DNA of 64,000 nt from Olleya sp. YS (GTDB lineage: Bacteria; Bacteroidota; Bacteroidia; Flavobacteriales; Flavobacteriaceae), in NCBI RefSeq assembly GCF_029760915.1, contig NZ_CP121685.1:2381001-2445000 (forward strand). Direction: 5' to 3'. Position numbers and translations under genes: made by a program. The stretch's first letter is position 1; each line of letters opens with the position of its first letter. The notes beneath the pieces are model-generated. The model was not told the DNA's origin. It worked only from the letters and a program-made list of their open reading frames with translations, and ran no database searches. Below are positions 16,447 through 27,457 of this stretch, in pieces.

Positions 16447-16475
16447 ACGATCTTGTGACTATTAAAACAGCTATT

Positions 16476-17936
16476 ATGACCACCTATGATTTTTCAGAAC
16501 AAGATTTGAAACAATTAGATCAAATCAATACACTTTATACTAGTCAAACCGCTAAACCAGATATTGTAGCATCAAAATTAAATATGCAACCCTTTTGGGA
16601 ATATTTAAAGACTTGCGAAGATTATCACACTAGCAAAACATTTTTAACCACAGGTTACACCCATGATATGGAAAACATGTTAGCCTTATATGTTATTAAT
16701 GACCTTATCGATAAAAAATATCTAACTACAGTCATACGCGATTATGGTTTGCCACCAACTTCGATTACAGAAAACCCATTTGCAGAAGATGGTATACTTA
16801 ACCATTTTGTTGCAGAAGATGGAACGCTTTATTTTATCTCTAAATATTGCCAATTAGATGTTATGTGGACAGCGGTTTTGGTTTATTATGCTTGGTACAA
16901 ACACATCCATCCACGTGGTGTACATCCTTTTATTGCACAAACTAAAATGCCACCACAGTTGGATTATCCTAAACAGGCTAGAGTCGCTATTTTAGGAGAT
17001 TGGGGAACTGGAGATTGGGATGATAAAGGTCAAGACTGTTGTCCAGCTCAATTGGTTATTGATGGTATAAATAGTTTAAAACCAGATTATATTGTTCATC
17101 TTGGAGACGTATATTATGCTGGAACCAGTAATGAAGAACGTGAGCATTTATTAGGCTTATTAAAAAACACCAAAAAAGCTAAACTGTACACCATGAATAG
17201 TAATCATGAAATGTACGATGGTGCTAATGGCTTATTTAAAGTAGCATTGAATAATCCTAAATTTGTAGAACAAAAAGGAAGTAGTTATTTTGCTTTTGAG
17301 ATTGGTAATTGGGTGTTAGTAGGTTTAGATAGTGCATATTATGACGATAGTGAATTGTATATGTCAGGCTCGTTATATAACGATAGAGGTGGACAGCAAC
17401 AAATTACATTTTTAAAAACAATAAAAGCATTAAACAAACCCATACTGTTAATGACGCATCATAATGGTATTGGGATTAAAGACCATAAATTTAATATCAA
17501 TACAAAGCTATTTAACCAAGTGGTTAAAGCTTTAGATGGTCAACTTCCAGATATGTGGTATTGGGGACATGTACACAATGGTTTGGTTTATAATACCGAT
17601 GCTTTAAAAGACGTATCTAAATTAGAAATTCCACAATCTACAACTCAGCAAACACCACGTTTACGTTGTTGTGGTCACGCCTCTATGCCTTTTGGTAATG
17701 GTTCTGGTTTTTATACAGAAGAAGGCGATAAACAAGTGATGCGAGAAGAATTATTATATTATTCTCACACACCTTTAGAGGCTAAGCATCCTACATTGTC
17801 TCAAAAAGAACGCGTGCTAAATGGATTTGCTATACTAGACATTAATGGGTCAGAGGTTGTTGAAACATTTTATGAAGTGTCCAATACTTATAACGGACAG
17901 CCTAAAGCAGTTTGGACCAGTAGTAGCAGCCAATAA
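16476..17936 (+). CDS. Calcineurin-like metallophosphoesterase
   Basis: All five metal-binding blocks of the calcineurin-like fold are present in order: ILGDWGTGDWDD, IVHLGDVYYAG, MNSNHEMYDG, LMTHHNG and YWGHVHNG. The domain spans about residues 165-390, after an N-terminal region of about 160 residues that I do not recognise. No signal peptide is present, so it is probably cytosolic. The open frame extends to a GTG at 16455, but the -7 box at 16439-16446 would place the transcription start near there. I therefore prefer the ATG at 16476, giving 486 residues. Substrate unknown. Confidence 0.85.
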   Translation: MTTYDFSEQDLKQLDQINTLYTSQTAKPDIVASKLNMQPFWEYLKTCEDYHTSKTFLTTGYTHDMENMLALYVINDLIDKKYLTTVIRDYGLPPTSITENPFAEDGILNHFVAEDGTLYFISKYCQLDVMWTAVLVYYAWYKHIHPRGVHPFIAQTKMPPQLDYPKQARVAILGDWGTGDWDDKGQDCCPAQLVIDGINSLKPDYIVHLGDVYYAGTSNEEREHLLGLLKNTKKAKLYTMNSNHEMYDGANGLFKVALNNPKFVEQKGSSYFAFEIGNWVLVGLDSAYYDDSELYMSGSLYNDRGGQQQITFLKTIKALNKPILLMTHHNGIGIKDHKFNINTKLFNQVVKALDGQLPDMWYWGHVHNGLVYNTDALKDVSKLEIPQSTTQQTPRLRCCGHASMPFGNGSGFYTEEGDKQVMREELLYYSHTPLEAKHPTLSQKERVLNGFAILDINGSEVVETFYEVSNTYNGQPKAVWTSSSSQ

Positions 17937-19367: not shown

Positions 19368-22274
19368 ATGAATAAATTTTATTTTGTAATTACGTTAATA
19401 AGTTGCTGCTTTTTAACACCAATACATGCTCAGGAAAAATCTACAGCAGGCATCCAATCGTTAATTGAAACCTATAAAAATGATATTAGAGGTCCTTACC
19501 ATCGTATAAAATGGTTTTGTGAAGATGGAACAATCAGAGATCCAAAAGACCCTTGTCCAGATAATGTAGAAGGAATCCAGCACGCAACTTTTAAAGAGTC
19601 CGCTTTAAATTTAAGGCAAACTAATCATTTGTTTTTTGGTGAAATTTTAGCAAGTAACACTATTCCAGATTTTTTGGATAGAGTCAATGACTACAGCAGA
19701 TTAAAGCAATATCAAGTTAATAAATATCTAGCTAGTATTGATGATGGTTGGGTATTACAAAAAGGACAATACTATAGAGGTGCTTTACAAAGTGAAGATG
19801 AAGAAGCTTGGGGAAAGACATTTTTTGAAACTATATTAAGAGACGACCAATTAGTACAATCTAAATACTATTTAATACGTCAAGCGCTAAAAGATCTTCC
19901 GCATAATGGAGATGATAATTTAGCGCAAACTATACGTAGTCAGTCCAAACTATTATCGGAAGCCATTCCAAAGTTTATGGATGCCAGAATAAAAATACAT
20001 GGTCAACCAGAAGCGTCAGATATTATAATGATTAAAGACTTTTTAAAAACAACTAATTCCAAAATTTCTGAATCTCAACAAAAAGATTTTAATGAGTTGT
20101 TAAAAAATATGGAGCAATTTTATGCACCATTAGATATTGTGTCTTTAGAAAAAGAGATACAATCATTAAAACTAACATCAGATATTAATGCGAGTTTTAA
20201 GGTTTTGATTGAAACAGCAAAACAGGAGCCTAACTCAGAACAAATAATAACGGATATTGCTAATGTTTTATATAATATAAGACAGGATATTTTGATGGTA
20301 AAAGGTGGAAGCACACGCTTAAAGTTACTGGATGTGTCTAACAAATTAGAAAATAAATTATTGATAGAAACACAGAATTGGAAAACCAATACGTTATCAG
20401 AAAACCTATATAAAATTAATGCATTAGCATGTGTGTCTTTAGGTACTGGTCTGATTGAAACTTGGGAATATACTGCAATAGAAAAACAACTCAACCAACA
20501 CTTGCTAGCTGACCAATTAACTATAAATCAGTTAAATGATATTTTAGTAAACGCTAGAAGTATTGTAGAATGGAGTGCATCAACCACAAAAGCAAATTAT
20601 CAAGATGTAGTAGATACTTATACAGCTTTTGAACCTCTTGCGTATGGATTTATTGATGATAGAGTACGTAGCAGTATAGCTTTGTCAATGGGTAATACGG
20701 TTAGTGATTTAGGTGTTTTAGTGGCTAAATTGTCCAACATAGAAAACAAAGTTATGTCTATTGATAATCAGTCATCAATTAGAGGGCTTAATCCAGGCTA
20801 CGCTTTTGGTAAATTGGTGATCATAGACGGTAATCCAGACCAAGTCGAAGTTAATACTAATAACATCTATATTTTTGAAAAGCCACCATCAGACTTAAAA
20901 CCTGTAGCAGGAATTATGACTGTTTCGGAAGGTAATTTGGTATCACACGTCCAGTTATTGGCTAGAAATCTAGGGATTCCTAATGCTGCATTATCATATG
21001 ATAATTTAAAAGATTTAAAATCTTTTGATGGGCAAGAGGTATTTTATGCAGTTTCTAACAAAGGTAACGTCATTCTAAAAGCAAAAAATGATATGTCAGC
21101 TTCAGAGCAAGCATTGTTTAGCAAAAAAGAGCGTACCAAAAATGTTATTGAAGTCCCAACCAAAGGTATTAGGTTAGACGTTAATACTGTAGTAAATATG
21201 CGCGATGTTGATGCTTCAGATTCTGGTAAATTATGTGGTCCTAAAGCTGCCAATTTAGGCGAGTTAAAAAAACAATTTCCAGAGCAGGTTGTAGAAGGAT
21301 TAATTATTCCGTTTGGGATTTTTAGATCACACATGAATCAAACTATGCCTAATCAAAATAAAAGCTATTGGACATATTTAAACGACACCTTTAAAGAGGC
21401 AAATGCCATGACATCTCAAGGTCAGTCTGAAGCAGACATTGAAGCGTTTCAACTTAAAGCTTTAGAGAAATTGCACAAAGCCATCTTAGAGATTCCGTTA
21501 GACGATAGTTTTTTAACAGATTTAAGACAACAATTTAAATTGGTATTTAAAAACTCCATTGGTAATGTTCCGGTATTTTTAAGAAGTGATACCAATATGG
21601 AAGATTTAAAAGAATTTACAGGAGCAGGTCTAAACTTAACGCTATTTAATATTAAAGATGAAGATAAAATTATTGAAGGCGTTAAGCGCGTTTGGGCATC
21701 TGCATATACTGAACGTAGTTTTAAATGGAGACAAAAATACCTGTCCAATCCAGAGAATGTGTTTCCTTCTATTTTGATTATTCCAAGTGTAGATGTTGAT
21801 TATTCTGGTGTGATGATTACAAAAGGTATCAATTCTGGTAACGATAATGACTTAACAGTCGCTTTTAGCCGAGGTGCTGGAGGTGCAGTAGATGGTCAAA
21901 TGGCAGAAACTAGGTTAATAACTAGTAATGATAACCAATTATTAGCTCCAGCTAGACAGTCTGACTATATACGTCTGCCTGTTTCAGGAGGTACTAAACA
22001 ATACCATACCTCTTTTGAAAGTCCAATTTTAAACCATAATAATATACAGGACATTAGGCAGTTAGCAACTACAATAAGGCAACTAATGTCTGGACATTCA
22101 GATAACAACAATCAAGCGTATGATGTAGAGTTTGGTTTTAAAGATGATAAATTGTGGTTGTTTCAAATACGACCGTTTGTAGAAAATAAGCAAGCTAAAA
22201 GCTCGGAGTATTTAGCATCTATTTCTACTAAAACCGATACCAACCAATTAATAAGTTTAAATACCAAATTATAA
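19368..22274 (+). CDS. Secreted phosphohistidine plus ATP-grasp dikinase-like protein (PEP synthase/GWD-related)
   Basis: A 968-residue protein with a clear signal peptide (residues 1-21, ending IHAQ). Residues about 25-465 are helical and unrecognised. Residues about 470-575 form a phosphohistidine 'mobile' domain with catalytic His527 in SEGNLVSHVQLLARNLGIP. Residues about 615-940 form a pyruvate-phosphate-dikinase-type ATP-binding domain: GPKAANLGEL (Lys626), VFLRSDTNMEDL (Arg739), RVWASAYTERSFKWR, and the closing DVEFGFKDDKLWLFQIRPF. This order, with no C-terminal PEP barrel, resembles plant glucan water dikinases rather than PEP synthase. An ATP-using enzyme exported from the cytoplasm is unexpected. 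It is followed after four bases by a serine hydrolase gene. Confidence 0.85.
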   Translation: MNKFYFVITLISCCFLTPIHAQEKSTAGIQSLIETYKNDIRGPYHRIKWFCEDGTIRDPKDPCPDNVEGIQHATFKESALNLRQTNHLFFGEILASNTIPDFLDRVNDYSRLKQYQVNKYLASIDDGWVLQKGQYYRGALQSEDEEAWGKTFFETILRDDQLVQSKYYLIRQALKDLPHNGDDNLAQTIRSQSKLLSEAIPKFMDARIKIHGQPEASDIIMIKDFLKTTNSKISESQQKDFNELLKNMEQFYAPLDIVSLEKEIQSLKLTSDINASFKVLIETAKQEPNSEQIITDIANVLYNIRQDILMVKGGSTRLKLLDVSNKLENKLLIETQNWKTNTLSENLYKINALACVSLGTGLIETWEYTAIEKQLNQHLLADQLTINQLNDILVNARSIVEWSASTTKANYQDVVDTYTAFEPLAYGFIDDRVRSSIALSMGNTVSDLGVLVAKLSNIENKVMSIDNQSSIRGLNPGYAFGKLVIIDGNPDQVEVNTNNIYIFEKPPSDLKPVAGIMTVSEGNLVSHVQLLARNLGIPNAALSYDNLKDLKSFDGQEVFYAVSNKGNVILKAKNDMSASEQALFSKKERTKNVIEVPTKGIRLDVNTVVNMRDVDASDSGKLCGPKAANLGELKKQFPEQVVEGLIIPFGIFRSHMNQTMPNQNKSYWTYLNDTFKEANAMTSQGQSEADIEAFQLKALEKLHKAILEIPLDDSFLTDLRQQFKLVFKNSIGNVPVFLRSDTNMEDLKEFTGAGLNLTLFNIKDEDKIIEGVKRVWASAYTERSFKWRQKYLSNPENVFPSILIIPSVDVDYSGVMITKGINSGNDNDLTVAFSRGAGGAVDGQMAETRLITSNDNQLLAPARQSDYIRLPVSGGTKQYHTSFESPILNHNNIQDIRQLATTIRQLMSGHSDNNNQAYDVEFGFKDDKLWLFQIRPFVENKQAKSSEYLASISTKTDTNQLISLNTKL

Positions 22275-22278
22275 TACG

Positions 22279-23598
22279 ATGAAGCAGTTATTTTACATAG
22301 GAATTCTAGTAGTTATTACTCTATCATTTAGTTTTACAACTAAACCATATCCTATAGACGGTTATGAGTCAACTGGAATTAAGCGTTTATATCAAATACG
22401 AAAAATGCAATTAGATAGTGTAAAGTATAACCGTATACCTTATGGTGCGTATTTGGGACTTAAAGACATAAAATTAAATCTTACTAGTGTTAATGATAGT
22501 ATTAATCAATTATTAGTTGAGGATAAGGATTTTGCAAAAGACATGAATAGATTATTTCCAGGATCTGGATATTCTGCTAGTATTATGGATATGTCCAATC
22601 CAGATAAATTACGGTATGCAGCTTATAATGAAAATGCAGGTTACCAACCAGGTAGTGTAGGTAAATTAGCAGTATTATTAGCAGTTATGGATCAAATGGC
22701 AAAAATATGTCCAGACTCTTGGGAAGATCGTACGATGTATCTAAGAGACATCCGTGTATCTGCTAGATATTGGGGAACTGGAGATCATCACACTATACCA
22801 ATTTATGATATTGAAAAAGATAAACTTACCAAACGTCAAGTTGTAGCTAGTGACGAGTTTTCGTTGTACGAATGGTTAGATCATATGGTTTCAGTAAGTA
22901 ACAATGGTGCAGCAAGTGTTATGTACAGAGAAGCAATGCTAATGGCTGCATTTGGTCAAGATTACATTAATTTAACCGAAACAGCAGCAGAACAATATTT
23001 TAAAGACACACCAAGAGACTCGTTAACCAATTTAGCCCACAGTGTTGTTAATGATCCCTTACGTCAATTAGGGATTTCTGAAGACGACTGGAGGTTAGGA
23101 GGTATGTTTACTAGAGAACCTGGTAAATATGTAGGCAGAAAAGGAGGAAGTATAGGTACACCTAAAGGCCTAATGAAGTTTTTAGTACAATTAGAACAAG
23201 GTAAAGTTGTTGACGAAAAATCAAGTTTGGAAATGAAACGTTTAATGTATTCTACAGACCGTAGAATCCGTTATGCAAGATCGTCTAGATTAGATAGTGC
23301 TGCTGTATATTTTAAATCGGGTAGTTTTTATAAATGTGATAGAAATAAAGATCCTAATTGTAGAGCGTACGCTGGTAATGTATTTAATTATATGAATTCT
23401 GTTATTATTGTAGAACATCCTAATAACGTTAAATATATTGTGTGTTTGATGACAAATGTGTTAAATAAAAATTCTGCAGGAGCACATATGTATTTAGCTA
23501 GTAAAATAGATGATATTATTAATAAAGATAACAATAGATTTAAAGAAGAAGTCAAAGAGACGGAATATAAAAGCGACTCCGATGAAACAGACGACTAG
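22279..23598 (+). CDS. Exported SxxK serine hydrolase (beta-lactamase/transpeptidase fold)
   Basis: A 439-residue protein with an N-terminal signal or anchor segment (residues 4-20). It has the three motifs of the penicillin-binding/class A beta-lactamase fold: SVGK at 126-129 (nucleophile Ser126, Lys129), SNN at 207-209, and KSG at 346-348. The ExxLN omega-loop of true class A beta-lactamases is not seen, and the domain carries large insertions, so antibiotic hydrolysis is not implied. It starts four bases after the dikinase-like gene, which indicates co-translation. A related gene lies at 26444-27457. The biological substrate is unknown. Confidence 0.85.
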   Translation: MKQLFYIGILVVITLSFSFTTKPYPIDGYESTGIKRLYQIRKMQLDSVKYNRIPYGAYLGLKDIKLNLTSVNDSINQLLVEDKDFAKDMNRLFPGSGYSASIMDMSNPDKLRYAAYNENAGYQPGSVGKLAVLLAVMDQMAKICPDSWEDRTMYLRDIRVSARYWGTGDHHTIPIYDIEKDKLTKRQVVASDEFSLYEWLDHMVSVSNNGAASVMYREAMLMAAFGQDYINLTETAAEQYFKDTPRDSLTNLAHSVVNDPLRQLGISEDDWRLGGMFTREPGKYVGRKGGSIGTPKGLMKFLVQLEQGKVVDEKSSLEMKRLMYSTDRRIRYARSSRLDSAAVYFKSGSFYKCDRNKDPNCRAYAGNVFNYMNSVIIVEHPNNVKYIVCLMTNVLNKNSAGAHMYLASKIDDIINKDNNRFKEEVKETEYKSDSDETDD

Positions 23599-23599
23599 C

Positions 23600-26434
23600 T
23601 TATAGTTTAAGTTTATCTAATGCTTCTAAAGCAAAGAATTTAATATCTGGATTTTTATGTTTTTTCAGTCTATTAAGTAGTGGTTTGTACTTAGTATCAT
23701 TTAATAAAATAATTAAGTGAAGGACTTCTAATTTGATTTTCTTGGCTCTATTTTTTGCTAACATTGTTAGACATGCACGCTCTTTCATGAGTTTTAATTT
23801 TAGTAACTGAGAAACATCAGCATCGTTATTACTAAGCACATAATATTCAATTAACGGTAAAATGGTTTGTTTTAGTTGGCTTTGTAATAAGTTATCTAAA
23901 AATTCTAATGCATTTACTCTTGCTTCTTTAACATCACTTAATAGTGCTGCATACGAGATTTCAATATCAGAGTCTTCATACACTATACTTAGCAAATTAA
24001 ATAAACATGCCATACTAGTTTCAGCCTGCTGTTCTAGTATTTCTATAATGCCTTGCCTTGCAATTAGTAATTCAATATCGTTATCATCGTGCACAGTATC
24101 TAACATTGTATTATTAATAATATGCTGTATGGATGCTATTGCACCAACGCTACGTTTATAATAGTTGCTTTCTTTTATAATTCTATTTTTTATATAACGC
24201 TTATTAAAATTAAGTCTAGCACCACTTTTTTCTAATTTAGCTAAAGATTTTGAAGCAGCTAAACGTATTATAATATCTTTACTATTTAATAATCGCATTA
24301 AAATAGTAACGGCTTTTTGTGTCTTAAAAGCTTCAATAATTTTAGGTAGATGTTTCGCCATCTTGTTATTTATAGCTTCATCTTTTTCTAATGAAATAAT
24401 ATGATCAATAATTTTTACCCCATAATTTTTAAGGGCTTTTACTACAGGTTTTCTATAAGATTTATCAGAGAGCAATTCTAATAATGTTGGAATAAACATT
24501 TGGTTAGAGGTTATCCCAGCAGCTTTTATAGCTTGTTTAACAATCTTAGGGTCTTTTGTATTTAAATGTACATTAATAAACGAAAAATATTTAGTCATAT
24601 TAGCTTCAGCAATGGTAATTAACAAGGTTCTAATGGCAGCTATTTGATTTTGATTTTCCGACAGAGAGAATGTCTTTACGCGTGCTTCAATTCTATTATA
24701 TAACCCAAATTGTAATGCTATTTTTTGATTGGCTGATGCTTCTTTAGATAAGCATAATAAAGCTGCATTAGAGATGCTTTCATTATCATGATCTAGATAT
24801 TGATTAAAAAATTGATGGTTTTGAATAGACGAATGGTTTAATATATATTCTAAAGCTGTAAATACTAAAGTGTCATCGTCAGAATGCACTAATGGCTCTA
24901 CTTTTTGCAATGCTGTACCTTTATCATAAAGATAAAATTGTTTGATAGCAGCTGTCTTTACTTCATTAGACGGATGATTAATCAAACCAATAATACTAGA
25001 TTTTAAAATGTGTAAATTACTATTACCCAAATGGTCTAAAAGGGATAATATGTCATTAGCATTACCTTCGTTTAAAATTCTTAAAGCAGATTTGACTGTG
25101 GTTTCGCGTTTATTTCTGGTATTGGTATCTTTATCCTTGTTATTAATTAATGTACGTTGAATATTCGTTCTAAAAGATTCAAAATAAGCTTCTCTTAATC
25201 TAAAAATTAAAATAATCCAAATTAAGACAAACAGCAATATAATAATGGTTATATAAGATGTGCTTAAGTCTAATTTTCGTATTAAAAAAATCAGCATAAA
25301 ACCAGCTATACCAGTTGCTATACTATCGACTGCAACATCAATGTATGACTTGGCTTGGTTTTTAATTAGCAATGGAATGGGCATAATAGATAACTCTGTT
25401 GCCGATTTATTTAAAGATTGTTTAAAGCTTCCATCAACACCTTTAATAATAATTAAAACCCAAAGCTCTGGAAAGGTTAAAAATAGCAAGCAACCTAATG
25501 CTATAACTAACGGTAAGATTAATAGGGTAGACGCTACACCAATCTGACTTAGCACACGATTAGTAATAAATAGTTGGATAGTTAGCGCTAGTACATTAAA
25601 TGTAGAAAACCAAAAGCCAAAAAATGAAGCAAGCTCATCCGGATCTGAAATGGCTCTGTTTGCAAAATCACTAAATTGAAAATCTACTAACTTAGCTACA
25701 ATAACGCTTATGCCAGTAATTAATGCCAAATAGGTAAGGTGTTTTGATTTAGTAATTAAACTAAACGAACTCTCTTGAAACGTACTGTCATCGTGCTTAC
25801 GTTGCATTCTTATGTACACGTTAAGCTTATGGATTCTAAGTGTCCAAATTTTTCTAATTATAGGAATACAGGTTATGGTTAAGATTGCTGCAATTATAAT
25901 GACAATTTTGTTGTTAAAACTAGATACGACAATGCTGGTTAAGTATCCGCCAAAAATTCCTCCAGCAATTGCACCTGCACCTATAAATCCAAATAACCGT
26001 TTGGCTTCTCTTGCATTAAAAACCATGTTGGCTAAGACCCAAAATTGAGACGTAGCCATAACCGCAAATAACGATACACCTAGATAGTATAAAAAAAGTA
26101 CCCAATCGCTTAATAAACTATATTCTAAAATAGCACTTAGTGCTAAAAAGCATAGACTAAAAAAAATCAGAGAAATGGTGGTTACCTTTAAAATAGAATA
26201 CCGTCTGATGGCTTTGTTGTAAAAGTAGGAAGTGATTACTGCAACTACAGCAACCAATAAGTAACCATAAGGGAGGTTATCTGCACCTAATTGGGATAAA
26301 AAAATTGCATTAATTGTTGGTTTAACAATTAACAGCACAGTTATGATAATAAATATGTATAACTGCATTAAAAAAGAGATGTATATTTCGCCATCTCTTA
26401 GTCCAAATGTTTTATTTAATAATTTGCTTAACAC
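23600..26434 (-). CDS. Nucleotide-translocase-like (NTT/Tlc) membrane protein fused to HEAT repeats
   Basis: A 944-residue protein in two parts. Residues 1-412 hold about twelve membrane helices and read like the ADP/ATP carrier (NTT/Tlc) branch of the major facilitators. Key segments are LLIVKPTINAIFLSQLGAD, KGVDGSFKQSLNKSATELS and AKSYIDVAVDSIATGIAGF. Residues about 430-944 are soluble helical HEAT-type repeats, for example LLNSKDIIIRLAASKSLAKL and KNPDIKFFALEALDKL. NTT proteins are best known for ATP/ADP exchange in intracellular bacteria and plastids; HEAT-fused homologues are known in free-living bacteria, but their role is unclear. It follows a serine hydrolase gene by nine bases and converges with the other serine hydrolase, with one base between stops. 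Confidence 0.82.
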   Translation of the reverse strand: MLSKLLNKTFGLRDGEIYISFLMQLYIFIIITVLLIVKPTINAIFLSQLGADNLPYGYLLVAVVAVITSYFYNKAIRRYSILKVTTISLIFFSLCFLALSAILEYSLLSDWVLFLYYLGVSLFAVMATSQFWVLANMVFNAREAKRLFGFIGAGAIAGGIFGGYLTSIVVSSFNNKIVIIIAAILTITCIPIIRKIWTLRIHKLNVYIRMQRKHDDSTFQESSFSLITKSKHLTYLALITGISVIVAKLVDFQFSDFANRAISDPDELASFFGFWFSTFNVLALTIQLFITNRVLSQIGVASTLLILPLVIALGCLLFLTFPELWVLIIIKGVDGSFKQSLNKSATELSIMPIPLLIKNQAKSYIDVAVDSIATGIAGFMLIFLIRKLDLSTSYITIIILLFVLIWIILIFRLREAYFESFRTNIQRTLINNKDKDTNTRNKRETTVKSALRILNEGNANDILSLLDHLGNSNLHILKSSIIGLINHPSNEVKTAAIKQFYLYDKGTALQKVEPLVHSDDDTLVFTALEYILNHSSIQNHQFFNQYLDHDNESISNAALLCLSKEASANQKIALQFGLYNRIEARVKTFSLSENQNQIAAIRTLLITIAEANMTKYFSFINVHLNTKDPKIVKQAIKAAGITSNQMFIPTLLELLSDKSYRKPVVKALKNYGVKIIDHIISLEKDEAINNKMAKHLPKIIEAFKTQKAVTILMRLLNSKDIIIRLAASKSLAKLEKSGARLNFNKRYIKNRIIKESNYYKRSVGAIASIQHIINNTMLDTVHDDNDIELLIARQGIIEILEQQAETSMACLFNLLSIVYEDSDIEISYAALLSDVKEARVNALEFLDNLLQSQLKQTILPLIEYYVLSNNDADVSQLLKLKLMKERACLTMLAKNRAKKIKLEVLHLIILLNDTKYKPLLNRLKKHKNPDIKFFALEALDKLKL

Positions 26435-26443
26435 AAAAGCAAG

Positions 26444-27457
26444 TTACTCTTCTTTTGATAATTTTTTTGATTTTTTTAAAACTTTTTCAATAGGTTTTAT
26501 CAAATTTCTAATGATTTGCTCTCCAAACGCATCATCGATTAAAGCAACAATAATATATTTTCTATTTGGACCCCAAACTAATGCAGAATCTGAGTGATAA
26601 TTTTTCCAAGATCCAGATTTTCTATAAATCTCTGCTTTTGGAGCAATTCTAATAAGTGTATTTACAAACTTATGATGTAGACCAGGCTTTCTCATTATTT
26701 TAAGCATTTCTCTAGACGCATCTGTACTTATTAAATTACCTAAAGCAAGTTGATAATAGAAACTACACACTTGCATAGTTGTAGCAGCATGACTTAACCC
26801 TTTTAAAGGTTCTGGGTGTCTCTTACCACCTGCTGCATAACGTTTTCCAACCCATAATCCTCCACCAACTTCTTCGTCATAAAATTTATGTTGTGGAGCA
26901 CGTAAAACAGCTTCAATTTTATCATAACCTAAACGGTCAATCATTCTGGTAGACGCTTGATTATTAGATTTACTAATCATTAAACGTAAGTCTTTTTTAA
27001 CTTCTTTTGTATATTCCAATTCCTTATTTTCTATTGCATCCATAGCTGCTAACAAAATGGCAATTTTAGGCAGACTGGCAGCATACATCATATGTGTATC
27101 ATTAATACCAGCATATTTAAAATTACTGACATCACTTAAATCGACAATAGCAACAGACATTAGTTTTTTAGCTACCAGTCCCTTCCAAACTGGATTAGCA
27201 TTAATTTCAGCATGTAAAAGTGAATCTAATTGCTTATTTTGAATATCTGAAATAGGTTTTATTTCATCGGTAATTAACAGTGGTAATTTTTTTATGGAAT
27301 CATTAGCTTTGGTAGGAATAGTTTTGAGTAAAACATCTGCAAGGTTTTCGGATTTCACAGAAGTTTGCATGTTGGACGTACCAGATGTGTTAAGTCCAAA
27401 AAATACTAATCCTACTATTACGGTAATAAGAATTAAACTGAATTTTAAAAGTTTCAA
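26444..27457 (-). CDS. Exported SxxK serine hydrolase, second copy
   Basis: A 337-residue protein with an N-terminal membrane anchor or signal (residues 4-21). The active-site motifs are SLPK at 128-131, SNN at 164-166 and KSG at 280-282, matching the beta-lactamase/transpeptidase fold. As in the neighbour at 22279-23598, no ExxLN loop is visible, so a housekeeping envelope role is more likely than drug resistance. It lies nine bases upstream of the NTT-HEAT transporter gene and 56 bases downstream of the carboxyltransferase gene, all on the minus strand. The two hydrolases share the SMYAASLPK/PGSVGK-type context but are quite diverged. Confidence 0.85.
   Translation of the reverse strand: MKLLKFSLILITVIVGLVFFGLNTSGTSNMQTSVKSENLADVLLKTIPTKANDSIKKLPLLITDEIKPISDIQNKQLDSLLHAEINANPVWKGLVAKKLMSVAIVDLSDVSNFKYAGINDTHMMYAASLPKIAILLAAMDAIENKELEYTKEVKKDLRLMISKSNNQASTRMIDRLGYDKIEAVLRAPQHKFYDEEVGGGLWVGKRYAAGGKRHPEPLKGLSHAATTMQVCSFYYQLALGNLISTDASREMLKIMRKPGLHHKFVNTLIRIAPKAEIYRKSGSWKNYHSDSALVWGPNRKYIIVALIDDAFGEQIIRNLIKPIEKVLKKSKKLSKEE

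Follow-up and report, generated by a model that had tools for sequence, protein, structure and literature searches.

An exported-looking dikinase, an NTT-HEAT carrier and two serine hydrolases encoded in one conserved block point to a possible, undescribed envelope pathway

What would a dikinase-like protein that appears to be exported, a relative of nucleotide carriers and two serine hydrolases do side by side? The question is raised by four adjacent genes in a 64,000-nucleotide stretch of Olleya sp. YS (contig NZ_CP121685.1, positions 2,381,001 to 2,445,000), here called the window. The first gene, DIK (19368..22274, + strand), encodes an exported-looking phosphohistidine dikinase-like protein of 968 aa and is followed after 4 bases by BLA1 (22279..23598, + strand), encoding an exported-looking SxxK serine hydrolase of 439 aa. 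On the opposite strand lie NTT-HEAT (23600..26434, - strand; 944 aa), in which an NTT/TLC-related carrier domain is fused to HEAT repeats, and, 9 bases away, BLA2 (26444..27457, - strand; 337 aa, TTG start), a second SxxK serine hydrolase. All four assignments combine ORF calls, Pfam matches and alignments, joined for DIK and BLA1 by structural models; signal peptides were assessed from N-termini and hydropathy. By the ORF calls, BLA1 and NTT-HEAT converge with a single base (23599) between their stop codons, and in several relatives the 3' ends of these two genes overlap. The first-pass annotation had described two tight pairs, DIK-BLA1 converging with NTT-HEAT-BLA2, and its coordinates and gaps match the ORF calls; its domain calls are likewise borne out by Pfam matches to PPDK_N, Beta-lactamase2 (twice) and TLC with HEAT_2, the phosphohistidine domain falling below the Pfam cut-off.

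The four genes stay together in many flavobacteria and in some more distant relatives. Of 119 relatives, 18 have full-length members of all four families, invariably in the block arrangement; the other 101 held only partial or weak matches, none full-length. This joint presence as a block rules out a chance neighbourhood. At E 0.001, DIK matched 35/119 relatives and 61/395 genomes of the phylum, full-length in 18 and 13, respectively; the partial matches (17/119 and 48/395 genomes) were taken as other dikinases and excluded. NTT matched 20 of the 119 relatives (weak G026 and G028 excluded) in a search with a single sequence, by which distant NTTs may be missed, and BLA2 matched 19 (weak G040 excluded). 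The survey of 395 genomes covered DIK and NTT. Its profile search matched NTT in 56 genomes, among which the block-type carriers stand apart as a high-scoring group of 11 at >=768 bits, the next score being 556 and the line having been set after the scores were viewed. Every one of the 11 genomes carries a full-length DIK. Two of the 13 DIK genomes lack the block-type NTT, each having a different NTT, and since DIK, BLA1 and BLA2 remain together there, the NTT may be peripheral. The block is present in further classes of the phylum with its gene order kept, and 68 of 80 named loci contain it entire; in the split-block genomes tested, the missing genes are mostly still present elsewhere in the genome. 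The first-pass annotation had named neighbourhood analysis as the check on its proposal, and both pairs prove to be linked and co-inherited well beyond this lineage.

The window's genus holds two versions of the block, with DIKs 57% identical, and the distances of the four genes co-vary as expected under whole-block transfer, in a comparison that includes duplicate contigs (L117 and L195, for example, belong to a single genome). Given these two versions, the co-variation can stem partly from block transfer instead of shared function. A plasmid search matched 40 records, of which none covered 80% of DIK. The four proteins had no PADLOC match at E 0.01, and a known anti-phage system was rejected. 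No description of the four-gene set was found with a few terms in titles and abstract starts of the open-licence literature.

Conservation of residues was read from alignments that omit near-duplicates and rows containing stops and comprise 26 of 30 DIK (A1), 22 of 26 full-length NTT (A2), 23 of 28 BLA2 (A3) and 23 of 29 BLA1 (A5) sequences; p-values computed in this analysis take no account of relatedness. DIK begins with a signal-like segment, followed by an invariant Cys pair (C51/C63), an all-helical domain (residues about 77-456), a swivel domain (about 466-580) containing H527, and an ATP-grasp domain (about 604-940), with a PPDK_N match at residues 622-948 (E 1.3e-30). The phosphohistidine domain is under the Pfam cut-off (PEP-utilizers, E 0.09 with the whole protein and 0.0058 when scanned alone) and is backed by the structural model and by H527, found in 26/26 aligned sequences. 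Equally conserved are K626, R739 and T758, the counterparts of the ATP-phosphate residues Lys22, Arg117 and Thr136 of rifampin phosphotransferase (RPH), the equivalence of K22 and K626 being placed by structural range only. Judged from its sequence, DIK looks exported and retains its ATP-binding residues. A structure search with the model gave RPH as the nearest solved fold for the ATP-grasp domain. That match lies within the ATP-grasp and swivel domains common to both proteins and scarcely covers the N-terminal helical domain, for which there was no Pfam match of note (best DUF643, E 1.3) and a sequence search found no solved relative (best E 0.16).

Assignment of DIK to an ordinary PEP synthase was rejected on the scores (TIGR01418, 83.7 bits against a cut-off of 739.75; PRK06464.1, 96.3 against 598) and on the domain order, which differs in the model; the match to the phosphohistidine domain of glucan water dikinase (GWD) stayed weak (GWD1_pHisD, 15.7 bits, E 0.011, against a cut-off of 27). 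The segment ahead of the catalytic His reads TVSEGNLVSH, with one Gly and a displaced Ser, and does not match the T/SXXGGXXXH motif of phosphohistidine dikinases (PMC12167813). Because of this deviation, DIK, though it may act like a dikinase, is not placed in the PEPS, PPDK, RPH or HpeHI families.

Both hydrolases match Beta-lactamase2 (PF13354; BLA1 E 7.3e-13, BLA2 E 2.7e-20) and keep a complete set of motifs in 23/23 aligned rows each: S126-x-x-K129, S207-x-N209 and K346-S-G in BLA1, and S128-x-x-K131, S164-x-N166 and K280-S-G in BLA2. An acid in the putative omega-loop region (E/D216 of BLA2, 23/23; D/E270 of BLA1, 22/23) may correspond to Glu166 of beta-lactamases. The BLA1 model has a class A beta-lactamase/PBP-A fold, and the protein carries an invariant Cys pair (C353/C361); the window's BLA2 begins with a hydrophobic segment, anchor or signal, in which a cleavage site is not clear. 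Neither reached the NCBIfam bla_class_A cut-off of 200 bits (scores of 13.2 and 16.8).

The carrier domain of NTT-HEAT (residues 1 to about 430) matches the TLC ATP/ADP transporter family (PF03219; E 9.1e-11, 41.7 bits against a cut-off of 21), with HEAT_2 (E 2.5e-15) C-terminal to it; the TIGR00769 superfamily model was not reached (32.9 against 387.2 bits). Homologues of the domain include Arabidopsis NTT1 (E 5.6e-15) and a second ADP,ATP carrier (E 4.9e-13), which we take to be that of Chlamydia. In plant NTT1, the charged residues K155, E245, E385 and K527 are required for ATP/ADP exchange. They align with L60, S121, D251 and T374 of the window's protein, the placement of K155 depending on a weak stretch, and in 22/22 aligned block carriers the counterparts of K155, E245 and K527 are absent and E385 is Asp. 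The HEAT-less NTTs L257 and L260 of other genomes, compared by eye, have K, D or A, D and K near the same places (at the E245 place of L257 the acidic residue is missing or shifted one turn), so the gap in the block carriers is not simply misalignment. With three of the four exchange residues lost throughout, the earlier suggestion that this NTT homologue moves ATP for the dikinase is weakened and finds no support here. Seven charged residues, K38, D251, K338, E347, K358, K362 and D366, are invariant in all 22 block carriers.

It seems to us an evenly balanced proposition that the four genes constitute one co-inherited envelope pathway that joins phosphoryl transfer, acyl hydrolysis and a carrier for an anionic solute. 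The proposal builds on the gene content, linkage, co-inheritance, predicted folds and active-site residues observed here. From these we infer the localisation and activity of the block proteins, the acceptor, and the topology and substrate of the carrier: DIK would be exported from the cytoplasm, its ATP-grasp domain would phosphorylate H527 on the swivel with release of AMP and phosphate, as in RPH and HpeHI, and the swivel would hand the phosphoryl group to an acceptor bound by the N-terminal helical domain. As acyl-serine hydrolases, either DD-peptidases or of class A, BLA1 and BLA2 would act on the same envelope material, cutting or remodelling it, most probably in its peptide or acyl part. 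NTT-HEAT would be an inner-membrane carrier, HEAT repeats in the cytosol, for an anionic pathway solute, whether nucleotide, phosphorylated product or precursor. Against the envelope-pathway reading we counted that, to our knowledge, the periplasm is generally held to be without ATP, along with the missing NTT1 residues, the two DIK genomes without a block-type NTT and possible block transfer.

As a special case of the envelope-pathway reading, NTT-HEAT could swap cytosolic ATP for AMP or ADP across the inner membrane and feed a periplasmic dikinase. Its homology to two ATP/ADP carriers and its strict co-inheritance with an exported-looking DIK that keeps ATP-binding residues favour such an exchange, which we nevertheless consider rather unlikely: the key residues are gone, L257 and L260 retain similar ones, two DIK genomes lack a block-type carrier, and a second type of exported-looking dikinase is encoded where no NTT match was found (genomes G035 and G094 by single-sequence search, G320 and G134 by profile search). 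Transport may instead run inward. Characterised NTTs transport phosphorylated anions, and BLA1 and BLA2 could release from the envelope, or from external material, a small unit that is phosphorylated by DIK outside the cytoplasm and then taken up through NTT-HEAT. The charged residues left invariant in the block carriers and the pairing of DIK and NTT-HEAT with one hydrolase gene each are consistent with such scavenging; it leaves both the ATP source of DIK and the import substrate unaccounted for, and we think it unlikely.

The nearest fold being RPH, the class A/PBP-A fold of BLA1 and the seeming exchange of the block as a whole could suggest that an RPH-like kinase and two beta-lactamase-like enzymes inactivate antibiotics or toxic compounds outside the cytoplasm. 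This we hold to be very improbable, since no NCBIfam resistance model was matched at cut-off, the RPH match is restricted to common domains, and a gene order kept across classes of the phylum was judged unlike a typical mobile resistance cassette. Somewhat less remote, though still improbable, is that two unrelated gene pairs travel jointly with no common pathway; the co-varying distances fit such hitch-hiking, whereas the joint presence of the genes survives unlinking and the four families stand or fall together in the same 18 relatives.

The block points to an envelope pathway so far undescribed. In its boldest form, which we advance tentatively and doubt, a dedicated NTT-HEAT would carry out ATP or some other high-energy phosphate, the exported dikinase would use it to phosphorylate a molecule of the envelope, and the process would be coupled to two peptidoglycan-type hydrolases; if true, there would be an ATP economy beyond the inner membrane of a Gram-negative envelope. 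We know of no ATP supply on the far side of that membrane, and DIK, as far as its sequence tells, would place an enzyme with intact ATP-binding residues there. NTT-HEAT fusions, widespread yet uncharacterised, gain fixed genetic partners in one lineage and with them a testable role. Whatever molecule DIK phosphorylates, an exported dikinase conserved alongside two serine hydrolases would add a new element to envelope biology.

How does the block compare with known systems? In plant GWD, the phosphohistidine domain precedes a C-terminal ATP-grasp domain, an order found also in DIK; unlike GWD, DIK is bacterial and exported-looking, and Pfam found no starch-binding domain in it. Over the BLA1 model, identity to PBP-A of Thermosynechococcus (2j7v) is about 12%, and BLA1 has additional N-terminal and Cys-pair segments. 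The NTT-HEAT fusions of Major et al. (2017; PMC5381601), uncharacterised and accompanied in the available text by a table that includes Bacteroidetes NTTs, place the NTT domain ahead of the HEAT repeats as the block carrier does; the same text describes a cyclic-nucleotide-binding neighbour and no exported dikinase or hydrolase, in contrast to the partners of the block carrier. With RPH (PMC4844700) and the two-component phenol dikinase HpeHI (PMC12167813), DIK has in common the ATP-grasp fold and residues and a swivel with a phosphorylatable His. HpeH followed by HpeI gives the substrate-swivel-ATP-grasp order of DIK, whereas RPH starts with its ATP-grasp domain. DIK differs from both in an N-terminal helical domain with its own invariant residues and no sequence relative found, in its apparent export, and in the linkage of its gene to NTT-HEAT and two serine hydrolases.

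The four-gene block was found in the window at 19368-27457, exactly where the first-pass annotation had placed it, in a genome of 3.0 Mb on a single contig. By the ORF coordinates, the exported-looking phosphohistidine dikinase-like gene (DIK) and the first SxxK serine hydrolase gene (BLA1) lie on the plus strand, the HEAT-fused carrier (NTT-HEAT) and the second hydrolase (BLA2) on the minus strand, and the gaps are 4, 1, and 9 bases. Pfam searches returned PPDK_N for DIK, Beta-lactamase2 for both BLA1 and BLA2, and TLC plus HEAT for the carrier. The closest named contig in the best 80 of 402 stretches was from Olleya aquimaris (DIK identity 90%). Upstream of the block, a calcineurin-like phosphoesterase gene was observed at 16455-17936 (Pfam E 5.6e-7); it was absent from the families recurring with the block when neighbor families were counted across 109 loci.

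The block is real and occurs widely within the phylum. Full-length DIK, BLA1, NTT-HEAT, and BLA2 were each present in 18 of 119 relatives (a set that takes in the window's own genome), and the identical 18 genomes hold all four. NTT-HEAT was counted if full length with identity of at least 36%, and BLA2 at E 2.7e-97 or better; partial DIK matches in 17 more genomes, taken as other dikinases, were left out, as were weak NTT matches in G026 and G028 and a weak BLA2 match in G040. DIK-BLA1 converged with NTT-BLA2 in 18/18 (17 fetched loci and the window), with one additional gene between BLA1 and NTT in two, encoding a membrane protein that is presumably TerC-like (L118:7780-8766, L122:7794-8732). 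None of the four genes was found in G004, a 99% complete genome of the window's genus. Across 395 phylum genomes, DIK was matched in 61 (E 0.001) and was full length in 13, window included; the complete convergent block was present in 7 of the 12 others. In G179 the genes are divided between two contig edges, one bearing DIK-BLA1 and the last part of NTT, the other the remaining NTT with BLA2. All four are present in G181 (L109:9869-13982), where NTT-HEAT lies on the DIK-BLA1 strand and overlaps BLA1 (with the start as chosen by script), so that DIK-BLA1-NTT-HEAT is apparently one operon. In G297 and G313, DIK-BLA1 converges straight on BLA2 with no NTT between, and in G293, where DIK stands by itself at its locus, the four genes are at four separate places. 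The carrier profile matched 56 of the 395 genomes, 11 of them at 768 bits or more (the next score was 556 bits), and all 11 encode full-length DIK. Of the two remaining DIK genomes, G313 has an NTT-HEAT carrier of another type (530 bits) and G297 a carrier without HEAT repeats (146 bits). The two gene pairs are thus linked and co-inherited well past the window's lineage, the test that the first-pass annotation had set.

A scan of named genomes yielded 402 stretches encoding a DIK relative. Among the best 80 of these, 68 held the whole block, three lacked BLA2 nearby (two at contig ends), and nine held DIK-BLA1 only; of these nine, L188 and possibly L163 and L171 are contig-edge cases, while L165, L170, L172, and L202 had no NTT within about 9 kb past DIK. 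Missing genes were sought in 12 genomes: seven of the nine with DIK-BLA1 only (L162 and L207 were left out), one intact Leeuwenhoekiella control, and four phylum genomes. Full-length NTT and BLA2, adjoining each other, were recovered in 7/7 DIK-BLA1-only genomes searched, the BLA2 match in that of L188 containing one stop. That the genes are kept even where they are no longer linked is the most telling indication of a common function. Single in-frame stops were also observed within the BLA2 matches of L113 and L222 (G002, G510) and the NTT match of L236 (G234); these may stem from sequencing error, a displaced gene end, or decay of the gene.

Selection or joint transfer holds the block together. 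Across the 109 loci, which include some duplicates, the four families were counted 109, 107, 97, and 95 times; the next commonest neighbor, an MFS gene, occurred at 27 loci and at none of the 12 phylum loci, and no fifth member gene emerged. Pairwise protein distances of the four correlated at 0.75-0.91 (93 loci, duplicates included). At the 23 loci with a nearby carboxylase gene, again with duplicates, the families correlated mutually at 0.65-0.96, as compared to 0.24-0.44 with the carboxylase. Since the entire block exists in two divergent forms within the window's genus (L112 and L117; DIK 57% and NTT 37% identical), it seems to have been exchanged or replaced as one unit, and such exchange could by itself yield part of the distance correlation.

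It had been proposed that NTT-HEAT could supply ATP to, or recover nucleotide from, the periplasm for DIK. The carrier likely belongs to the NTT family: in profile searches its membrane domain matched 9j3j, ADP,ATP carrier protein 1, chloroplastic (E 5.6e-15), which we take to be Arabidopsis NTT1, and a second ADP,ATP carrier, 9j3n (E 4.9e-13), presumably that of Chlamydia. Its 15 hydrophobic fragments, read as about 12 helices, would place the HEAT repeats on the cytosolic side. ATP transport by Arabidopsis NTT1 is reported to depend critically on K155, E245, E385, and K527 (PMC10654386, PMC3306366). In the profile alignment, counted by hand, these correspond to chain residues 71 (K), 161 (E), 301 (E), and 443 (K), all shifted by 84. 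Opposite the four NTT1 residues, the window's carrier has L60 (placed in a weak alignment stretch), S121, D251, and T374; counterparts of K155, E245, and K527 are missing. Among 22 aligned block carriers, none had an acidic residue in 113-134 or a K or R in 371-385, and 18 had no K or R in 52-70. ATP/ADP exchange by the carrier, as judged from these residues, is not supported. In a wider alignment inspected by eye, two HEAT-less NTTs from other genomes (L257, L260) showed K, an acidic residue, D, and K near the key places, while the six included carriers of the other NTT-HEAT type, which scores about 350-556 bits against the profile of the block carrier, had no counterpart of E245 or K527. Near the other-type NTT-HEAT, a protein whose N-terminus is lipoprotein-like, with C-x-x-[ST]-[KR]-P-Y, was seen by eye at six of nine fetched loci (L253, L254, L256, L257, L260, L261), with no Pfam match in the two searched; at L253 an Omp85-domain protein also adjoins the carrier (E 8.1e-15).

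Other exported-looking dikinases bear on the same proposal. A second, shorter family of about 628 aa with a signal-like N-terminus was found at L020:937-2823 (plus), L084:892-2769 (plus), and L085:1498-3393 (minus). An 835-aa protein encoded at L022:529-3036 (plus) bears a sorting tail for type IX secretion (Por_Secre_tail E 5.3e-7). All four proteins retain the His and ATP-grasp motifs. Their genomes, G035, G320, G134, and G094, gave no NTT match (single-sequence search in G035 and G094, profile search in G320 and G134), so exported dikinases seem not to need NTT-HEAT. This apparent independence from the carrier counts against the ATP-supply reading. The block genomes G001, G005, G006, and G009 each gave an additional dikinase match (666-682 aa).

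We infer the working mechanism of the block, as distinct from its observed existence. The first-pass annotation knew of no described system with these four genes, and our limited searches of open-licence papers listed none; the parts of the block are themselves members of known superfamilies.
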